DNA of 64,000 nt from Pseudomonas sp. DTU_2021_1001937_2_SI_NGA_ILE_001 (lineage in GTDB: Bacteria > Pseudomonadota > Gammaproteobacteria > Pseudomonadales > Pseudomonadaceae), in assembly GCF_032463525.1 (NCBI RefSeq), contig NZ_CP135971.1:5458501-5522500 (forward strand), written 5' to 3'. The first letter of the stretch is position 1. Each line of letters begins with the position of its first letter. Shown here piece by piece: positions 32,805 through 34,835 of the stretch. The translations under genes and the position numbers were made by a program. The notes under the pieces were generated by a model. It had not been told where the DNA came from. It saw nothing but the letters and a program-made list of their open reading frames with translations, and made no database searches.

Positions 32805-34336
<1,532 letters not shown>

Positions 34337-34340
<4 letters not shown>

Positions 34341-34423: not shown

Positions 34424-34466
34424 GTCTGACTCCTGGTTCAAGCGCTTGGCGCCCGGGAGACAGAAG

Positions 34467-34489
34467 AAACCCGCCTCCAGGGCGGGTTT
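34467..34489 (-). terminator. attenuator terminator of ilvA
   Basis: On the - strand AAACCCGCC (34489-34481) pairs perfectly with GGCGGGTTT (34475-34467) around a CTGGA loop, followed by a pyrimidine-rich CTTCTGTCT. The 5' arm can instead pair with an upstream GGCGGGTT (34513-34506), giving a competing antiterminator. Confidence 0.75.
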
Positions 34490-34513
34490 TTTGCAAACGT
34501 CGGCTAACCCGCC
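34481..34513 (-). promoter_or_regulatory. antiterminator hairpin of ilvA leader
   Basis: GGCGGGTT (34513-34506), made of the last two sense codons and the stop of the leader peptide, pairs over 8 bp with AACCCGCC (34488-34481), the 5' arm of the terminator. The intervening loop is 17 nt. A ribosome reaching the leader stop would cover the upstream arm and allow termination. Confidence 0.7.
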
Positions 34514-34569
34514 ATGACTGGAATGACGGTAATAATAATCTGGCCGACGGAATGCTTTGAGGTGTTCAT
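34504..34569 (-). CDS. ilvA attenuator leader peptide
   Basis: A 21-codon ORF, too short for usual ORF calling, whose product ends VGQIIITVIPVMAG. It contains three consecutive Ile codons (all ATT), a fourth Ile, plus Thr and three Val. It precedes threonine ammonia-lyase, the isoleucine-pathway entry enzyme, and its stop codon sits inside the antiterminator arm. No Shine-Dalgarno is visible before the ATG. The nearest promoter would start transcription about 3 nt upstream, so it may be translated leaderless. Confidence 0.7.
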   Translation of the reverse strand: MNTSKHSVGQIIITVIPVMAG

Positions 34570-34578
34570 GGGCCGGAG

Positions 34579-34606
34579 CGTATGGCGTATCGCCAGGCAA
34601 AGTCAA
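34579..34606 (-). promoter_or_regulatory. candidate ilvA promoter
   Basis: On the - strand TTGACT (34606-34601), 16-bp spacer, CATACG (34584-34579). The -10 is weak. It predicts a start near 34572. Confidence 0.45.
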
Positions 34607-34748: not shown

Positions 34749-34835
34749 ATGGACGAATACCAGGAAGAACTGCTCGAATCTCGCGCCTTCGAACTCGATA
34801 TGCCGGAACCGGCCGATGATGCCACTGAGCTGTGA
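34749..34835 (+). CDS. 28-residue acidic small protein
   Basis: A short ORF starting MDEYQEELLESRAF and ending DDATEL, with an ACAGGAG site about 11 nt before ATG 34749. It is very acidic, soluble and without recognisable domain. A 7-bp hairpin (TGGGGCA, 34697-34716) precedes it. The stop abuts the end of the convergent AraC gene. Function unknown. Confidence 0.5.
   Translation: MDEYQEELLESRAFELDMPEPADDATEL

Follow-up and report, generated by a model that had tools for sequence, protein, structure and literature searches.

The enteric ilvGMEDA attenuator, with its ilvL leader, and the trp and his attenuators share a plan in which codon runs in a leader peptide are combined with RNA arms that pair as 1:2, 2:3 and 3:4 and with an intrinsic terminator before the biosynthetic gene. 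Proteobacterial attenuators are said to have been treated by Vitreschak et al. in 2004, and the kind of mechanism considered here is already known. In Gram-positive bacteria, ileS and ilv genes are controlled by T-box leaders, which bind tRNA directly. The Pseudomonas sRNA P9 was reportedly found by prediction and Northern blotting in a 2006 paper; it reportedly lies upstream of a threonine dehydratase, and it is not known to have an assigned function. In S. meliloti, rnTrpL is a small RNA whose first bases are the ATG of a short leader peptide, so that it may be a leaderless mRNA; attenuation at trpL releases a small RNA, and functions in trans are reported there for both the RNA and the peptide (PMC7298713).

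The element analysed here lies upstream of ilvA in a window of 64,000 nucleotides, the whole stretch of DNA under study. With a probability of roughly 0.9, this element attenuates the transcription of ilvA by means of a ribosome that translates a leaderless peptide ORF and senses isoleucine, and the P9 'sRNA' is for the most part the leader left by premature termination. The architecture, comprising the open reading frame (ORF), the Ile codons, four arms, an outer clamp, the promoter spacing and the target genes, is conserved; from it we infer the stalling of the ribosome, the switch and the response to isoleucine. A literature search, made largely outside the subscription journals, returned no description of this attenuator; an ilvA attenuator in Pseudomonas may have been predicted before. 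Three points were found in no searchable paper and appear to be new: that the element is P9, that its probable leaderless start extends across an order, and which genes it precedes.

Architecture of the ilvA leader

The features of the locus are, in order of transcription and followed by the family match and the gene:

34577 to 34606, minus strand: putative promoter, TTGACT (34606-34601), an 18-nt spacer and TACGCT (34582-34577), 7 nt before the leader ATG
34504 to 34569, minus strand: leader peptide ORF, MNTSKHSVGQIIITVIPVMAG and TAG, predicted to be leaderless with its start at or beside the A of the ATG
34543 to 34549, minus strand: outer clamp helix, 5' side, CGTCGGC (folding and partner-swap test, 26/31)
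34531 to 34539, minus strand: putative regulatory codons Ile11-Ile12-Ile13 (ATT ATT ATT), read directly, with adjacent Ile codons in relatives
34523 to 34529, minus strand: arm 1 (protector), CCGTCAT, in the covarying helix 1:2
34506 to 34515, minus strand: arm 2, ATGGCGGGTT, partner of arm 1 or arm 3, overlapping the last codons and the first stop base
34498 to 34504, minus strand: outer clamp helix, 3' side, GCCGACG (permutation, folding and swap tests)
34481 to 34489, minus strand: arm 3, AAACCCGCC, which pairs with arm 2 in the antiterminator or forms the 5' half of the terminator
34467 to 34475, minus strand: arm 4, GGCGGGTTT, then CTTCTGTC, 3' side of the terminator
34466 to 34539, minus strand: match to Rfam RF00624, whole model 1-74 (covariance-model search)
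32805 to 34340, minus strand: ilvA, biosynthetic threonine ammonia-lyase of 511 aa with a C-terminal regulatory domain (Pfam PALP and Thr_dehydrat_C; TIGR01124)

An earlier note on this DNA had proposed a 21-codon ORF at 34569-34504, a perfect 9-bp terminator at 34489-34467, and a perfect 8-bp complement of the terminator's 5' arm at 34513-34506, all upstream of ilvA, and each of these elements is present. Direct reading of the minus strand places the ATG at 34569 and the TAG at 34506-34504, with 21 codons for MNTSKHSVGQIIITVIPVMAG. The terminator, AAACCCGCC-CTGGA-GGCGGGTTT, has nine pairs, six of them G-C, and a loop of five; terminator-like sites number two in 601 bases, against 0.5 expected in shuffles. 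The segment GGCGGGTT (34513-34506) is the exact 8-bp complement of AACCCGCC (34488-34481). The downstream gene starts at 34340 and encodes a full-length biosynthetic IlvA, which scores 817.7 bits against TIGR01124 (cut-off 411.3).

The same note was mistaken in counting three arms instead of four. A protector arm at 34529-34523 (CCGTCAT) pairs with ATGGCGG (34515-34509) over 7 bp, one of them U-G, and an outer helix, in which CGTCGGC pairs with GCCGACG, joins the codons before the Ile run to the sequence after the stop. Since arm 1 and the clamp both exist and covary, the three-arm device is rejected in favour of four classical arms plus a clamp. The leader contains four Ile codons, the fourth at 34524-34522, together with three Val and no Leu codons, and the lack of Leu codons sets aside an enteric-type multivalent ilv attenuator.

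Two further small ORFs lie nearby. One, MIAIPRSIAPFASQLHCRVLSLHKEPTR (34423-34337, minus strand), has a Shine-Dalgarno sequence, sits between the terminator and ilvA, and overlaps the ilvA start in an ATGA, an arrangement in which translational coupling is possible. ORFs of 25-40 codons starting with MI (MIIIRPS..., MIVIPRS...) occur at 22 of 97 ilvA-class loci, all with window-like leaders. The other, MDEYQEELLESRAFELDMPEPADDATEL, is divergent (34749-34835, plus strand), with an SD-like AGGAG upstream; full-length matches occur at 21 of 113 loci, the window included, and four more are partial at the edge of the 500-nt search.

Identity with P9 and distribution

Between 33000 and 36500, RF00624 ("Pseudomonas sRNA P9") is the sole Rfam match at E<=1, covering 34539-34466 with 92.4 bits (cut-off 43, E 5.2e-20). 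The element therefore belongs to an RNA family that is already known and that Rfam lists as an sRNA, under the type Gene. The P9 model takes in the leader only from the first Ile codon onward; the 30 nt before it, start codon included, lie outside the model. No T-box or other known leader family besides P9 matched in this interval at the same limit, and a T-box leader is rejected for want of a covariance-model match.

At E<=0.001, RF00624 has matches in 299 of the 398 genus genomes, 290 of them above the cut-off. In the family, 139 of 298 genomes have a match, 129 of them above the cut-off, with 8 of 19 genera represented, and none of 14 control genomes has one; at the laxer limit of E<=0.1, two of the 14 controls have matches, both below the cut-off. 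In all, 126 loci were read: 86, including that of the window, came from searches, and the other 40 were retrieved by position. Thirteen low-scoring loci (L082-L086, L115-L120, L124 and L125) were dropped by eye as terminator-only, which left 113. Seven model matches (L165, L167, L174-L178) were dropped likewise, and L217, on a short contig with coordinates off the leader, was left out.

Conservation and coding character of the leader ORF

The alignment of relatives that had been proposed as a check retains a short Ile-rich ORF, in frame with the Ile/Met core, at all 113 kept Pseudomonadaceae loci, and arms 1:2 and 3:4 covary. The common pattern in the family is M-x(9-10)-IITAI-x(2)-(M/L)AG-stop. 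Because the starts at these loci had been picked in frame, the frame test was redone without using the frame. Among 105 distinct upstream regions, 87 have TTGAC, two of which lack an ATG at the expected distance; with the start thus chosen by the promoter, the first ATG 30-45 nt after TTGAC shares the reading frame of the Ile core in 84 of 85.

Across 138 distinct leader reading frames, Ile accounts for 510 of 2724 codons (18.7%; ATT 399, ATC 88, ATA 23), and adjacent Ile codons occur in 127. The eleven leaders without Ile-Ile are seven loci of genus g5, in which Ile-Met-(Thr/Ala)-Ala-Ile takes its place, together with L153, L179, L221 and L209. The last of these has a model start out of frame, so that it enters the codon tally without Ile and is excluded from the frame and promoter count; with a start further upstream it reads, by eye, ...ARIMSIIIREVMVV. 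L189 and L192 are absent from the codon and promoter counts, though both carry ordinary leaders. Judged by these features, the leader ORF looks coding.

Putative promoter and probable leaderless start

Of 153 distinct upstream regions, 130 have a TTGA whose first base lies 35-38 nt ahead of the leader ATG, and in 13 there is none in range. The base before the ATG is C in 127 of the 153. Four regions carry GGAG, AGGA or GAGG, taken as SD-like motifs, between -16 and -4, and 149 carry none. Among the non-redundant leaders, TTGAC is not in place in L067 and in the seven of the SnoaL/AAA class. The window conforms to the common spacing. A consensus promoter scan of the window called no promoter at the leader, so the window's -10 element is weak. 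Given the spacing of TTGA and a spacer of 17-18 nt, the +1 position would fall at about the A of the ATG. With the AUG at the expected transcription start and an SD-like motif mostly absent, the leader peptide is probably leaderless.

Covariation of the helices

Two sets of sequences were compared: A1, with 43 of the 113 leaders after thinning at 90% similarity, and A2, with 54 sequences, of which 31 come from the 43 of A1 and 23 from 25 leaders outside the family (L169 and L170 left out). The helices were named from the window sequence, which favours the percentages paired; slid versions of the helices, as a control, pair in 29.9-67.0% of cells.

In A1, helix 1:2 is paired in 90.0% of cells, seven of which changed on both sides (0/500 shuffles), as in the replacement of CCGCC/GGCGG by CCACC/GGTGG; two pairs show two-sided change, but 114 of 500 shuffles attain that count, and 23 of the 43 leaders lack the outermost pair. 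Helix 3:4 is paired in 92.8%, with six cells changed on both sides (4/500 shuffles). Helix 2:3 has no covariation support in A1, where 87 of 500 shuffles reach its percentage paired and 78 of 500 its score, because it is mostly invariant there; its seventh pair is missing in 27 of 43 leaders and its eighth in 8 of 43. In A2, 2:3 has five cells changed on both sides (12/500 shuffles; 31/500 for pairs with change), while its percentage paired is reached by 0 of 500 shuffles and its score by 4 of 500. Its sole varying pair is C-G in 25, U-G in 22 and U-A in 5 sequences, never C-A, with two rows misaligned at that point.

The clamp has a mean duplex energy of -11.1 kcal/mol, against -8.3 kcal/mol with permuted partners (0/5000). 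Since that permutation ignores relatedness, a swap between nearest neighbours was added, in which the clamp's own partner was better in 26 of 31 cases, worse in four and tied in one. Taken together, comparison of the sequences argues for mutually exclusive antiterminator and terminator helices and for a protector helix, with the support for 2:3 coming from A2 and not from A1.

Proposed mechanism

Transcription would begin at or beside the leader AUG, so that the ribosome loads onto the 5' end of the RNA. When Ile-tRNA is scarce, the ribosome would stall at 34539-34531, breaking the outer clamp and covering arm 1; arm 2 could then pair with arm 3, and RNA polymerase would continue into ilvA. 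When Ile-tRNA is plentiful, a ribosome at the stop codon would cover arm 2, leaving arms 3 and 4 to form the terminator. If the leader is not translated at all, the clamp and helix 1:2 would sequester arm 2, and 3:4 would again terminate transcription.

The predicted energies for the window are -8.6 kcal/mol for 1:2, -19.0 for the clamp with 1:2, -13.0 for 2:3 and -15.2 for 3:4. Stalling was modelled on the assumption that a ribosome held at Ile11-13 covers 15 nt beyond the start of the P site. With arm 1 masked in this way, the predicted fold of the RNA ending at arm 3 is 2:3, and that of the full-length RNA is the terminator. As the terminator is the more stable of the two at equilibrium, the switch must be kinetic, as it is in classical attenuators. 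On this reading, the simplest account of the P9 'sRNA' is that it is the leader after termination.

Threonine deaminase copies

An ilvA match lies downstream of the leader at 94 of the 113 kept Pseudomonadaceae loci. The window genome has a second IlvA, 97% identical, elsewhere. Searched genome-wide, the leader model R2, which was built with the window sequence included, gave one convincing match (E 5.5e-20; the next 0.025), and hence no second leader, the second IlvA included. In the genus, the 22 genomes examined that lack a P9 match each have one IlvA at E<=1e-60, and a leader core was found within 330 nt upstream of ilvA in none of them; five have sub-threshold P9 matches (E 0.006-0.02). 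The attenuated copy of ilvA seems to be absent from these 22 genomes, and the attenuator is therefore dispensable in the genus.

At 43 loci the leader-linked gene can be read to its stop, and in 42 of these it encodes fewer than 400 aa (333-361 in 41), the remaining one encoding 511 aa; among 56 that run off the locus, 28 can be followed without a stop over 435 aa or more. The short IlvA stops close to the point at which the regulatory domain of the window protein starts (residue 326). Since it lacks this domain, attenuation may stand in for feedback inhibition in many species; the window's own leader-linked IlvA keeps the domain.

As separate observations, a leader-linked IlvA of 333-361 aa, with no room for a C-terminal regulatory domain, is encoded at 36 loci between L017 and L076 and at L160, L161, L163, L205 and L209, and in genomes G083, G268 and G487 the other IlvA copy is full length.

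Leaders outside Pseudomonadaceae and their target genes

In the order, model R1, made from A1, matches 27 of 293 genomes and R2 matches 47 of 322; R1 also matches 9 of 321 genomes in the class, and R2 24 of 59 in the family of G908. The weak tail contains terminator-only matches, and many unread R2 matches cover model positions 57-110, the terminator part only. Forty-five leaders were read outside Pseudomonadaceae, 26 of them before ilvA, cimA or ileS. The genes behind them are:

short ilvA, 5 leaders: L160, L161, L163, L205, L209
cimA (citramalate synthase), 12 leaders: L152, L170, L218, L222-L228, L231, L233
ileS (isoleucyl-tRNA synthetase), 9 leaders: L162, L166, L169, L219-L221, L229, L230, L232
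P-loop protein of about 173 aa behind an Ile-run leader, 16 leaders: L147-L151, L153-L159, L164, L173, L189, L204
SnoaL-like protein, 2 leaders: L171, L172
GNAT protein, 1 leader: L179

Examples of such leaders are MNTNLTQKTARIIIIP (P-loop), MKISKTHTKGIIIRL (cimA) and MKYAQTFAIYRFIIQHRTVG (ileS). The name CimA rests on one protein, whose best NCBIfam score of 610.6 bits is below the curated cut-off of 950, and the name IleS on one truncated by the end of its locus (577.4 bits, cut-off 621.4); the remaining members were assigned by similarity to these two. The strongest indication that Ile-tRNA is the signal comes from the presence of the leader before both ileS and cimA, and the target genes outside the family thus point to isoleucine. 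The core of the earlier reading, namely an Ile leader peptide, competing arms and a terminator before ilvA, perhaps leaderless, gains support from the comparison and from the same kind of leader upstream of these two genes.

The P-loop class is the largest outside the family and has no known tie to isoleucine. One member of about 173 aa shows a weak likeness to 'DNA topology modulation protein' (NF005994, 82 bits, cut-off 215). The IleRS of L162 is best matched by TIGR00392, its next named relatives being the MupB and MupA types at 422 and 375 bits (cut-offs 1900).

Within Pseudomonadaceae, paralogous leaders precede a SnoaL-like gene at L077, L078, L080, L081, L107, L108, L113, L114 and L121, with an AAA_33-like gene after it at L107, and an AAA_33 gene lies directly behind the leader at L079, L122 and L123. 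A SnoaL-like gene stands between leader and ilvA at L035, L087, L089, L091-L093, L097 and L106. An Ile-type leader followed by a SnoaL-like (DUF4440) gene and an AAA_33-like P-loop gene was seen at L107, L127-L129 and L133, the last in a MAG labelled Proteobacteria with the leader MKFFYTQNSEIIRTIQTMVG.

A broader proposal, to which we give slightly less than an even chance, is that P9 represents, in Pseudomonas, a wider class of leaderless Ile leaders spread over the order and beyond. These would form an isoleucyl-tRNA-starvation regulon of threonine deaminase (in many cases a second IlvA that lacks the feedback domain, attenuation replacing allosteric control), citramalate synthase, isoleucyl-tRNA synthetase, and small kinase-, SnoaL- and GNAT-like proteins that would help in Ile shortage or under inhibition of IleRS.

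Alternative explanations

P9 could instead be a trans-acting sRNA with targets of its own, its position before ilvA and its small ORF being secondary. Rfam lists it under the type Gene, and an attenuator RNA can also act in trans, as does S. meliloti rnTrpL, which destabilises trpDC mRNA (PMC7298713); the two roles are compatible. Conservation, however, tracks the Ile codons, the reading frame and the mutually exclusive helices, and an ilvA match lies downstream at 94 of 113 loci in the family and an Ile gene behind 26 of 45 leaders outside it, which leaves a primarily trans-acting role improbable. Rather less probable still is an unregulated intrinsic terminator with chance complementarity, which we consider very remote: terminator-only sequences do score weakly against P9 (13 of 126 loci dropped), yet both the arms, with changes on the two sides of their helices, and the ORF persist in several families, and the window's genome has one convincing leader match.

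Two other proposals concern the cause of ribosome arrest and the identity of the signal. Both are unlikely, to a similar degree, and fall between the preceding two. In the first, the nascent peptide, and not a shortage of Ile-tRNA, would arrest the ribosome, which would fit the strong conservation of the core IITAIP or IITAI among many Pseudomonadaceae leaders; part of this conservation is explained by the arm sequence that overlaps the core, and the peptides outside the family differ (RIIIIP, GIIIRL, FIIQHRTVG), having mainly Ile runs in common. Threonine, the substrate of IlvA, or another branched-chain amino acid might be the signal in place of isoleucine, given that the core is often Ile-Ile-Thr-Ala-Ile and that the window leader has three Val codons. 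Against this, Ile replaces the core Thr in L041, L075 and L076, and the cimA and ileS leaders, by eye, keep Ile runs with no constant Thr or Val. Attenuation in response to isoleucyl-tRNA remains the preferred reading. Points that count against it are the greater equilibrium stability of the terminator, the pairs missing from 1:2 and 2:3 in part of A1, the Ile-Met leaders of g5, the weak -10 of the window, and the ilvA copies that stand without a leader, in the window's genome and in the 22 genomes without a P9 match.

Significance and comparison with known systems

An Rfam family filed as an sRNA gene would thereby gain a concrete, testable function, and P9 would be detectable as a short transcript because termination is one of the normal outputs of the device. 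Gammaproteobacteria would gain an Ile-codon attenuator whose start is conserved and probably leaderless, so that leaderless initiation under amino-acid stress can be tested directly. Such a leader may also serve as a guilt-by-association probe, in that uncharacterised P-loop kinase-like, SnoaL-like and AAA_33 proteins stand behind an isoleucine-type leader. In addition, the data suggest that two IlvA enzymes share the work, one under feedback regulation and one under attenuation, the latter without the feedback domain in many species.

The window element is a member of Rfam P9 over the whole model, filed there as an sRNA gene and explained here as an attenuator. With the enteric ilvGMEDA (ilvL), trp and his attenuators it has in common the leader codon runs, the arms and a terminator before a biosynthetic gene. 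It differs from enteric ilv in its runs of Ile, where the enteric leader has Ile, Val and Leu codons, and from enteric attenuators in its size of about 105 nt in all, in an arm 2 that reaches into the stop codon, in a leader without a Shine-Dalgarno sequence, and in an outer clamp that encloses the Ile codons. The S. meliloti trpL attenuator, which the window element would resemble in an RNA that starts with the leader ATG and in the release of a small RNA, responds to Trp and precedes trpE(G) in an alphaproteobacterium, whereas that of the window would respond to Ile and precedes ilvA; trans roles of the RNA and the peptide are reported for S. meliloti. T-box leaders follow the same logic of a response to uncharged tRNA and share some of the same targets, and the window type has a conserved short ORF instead.
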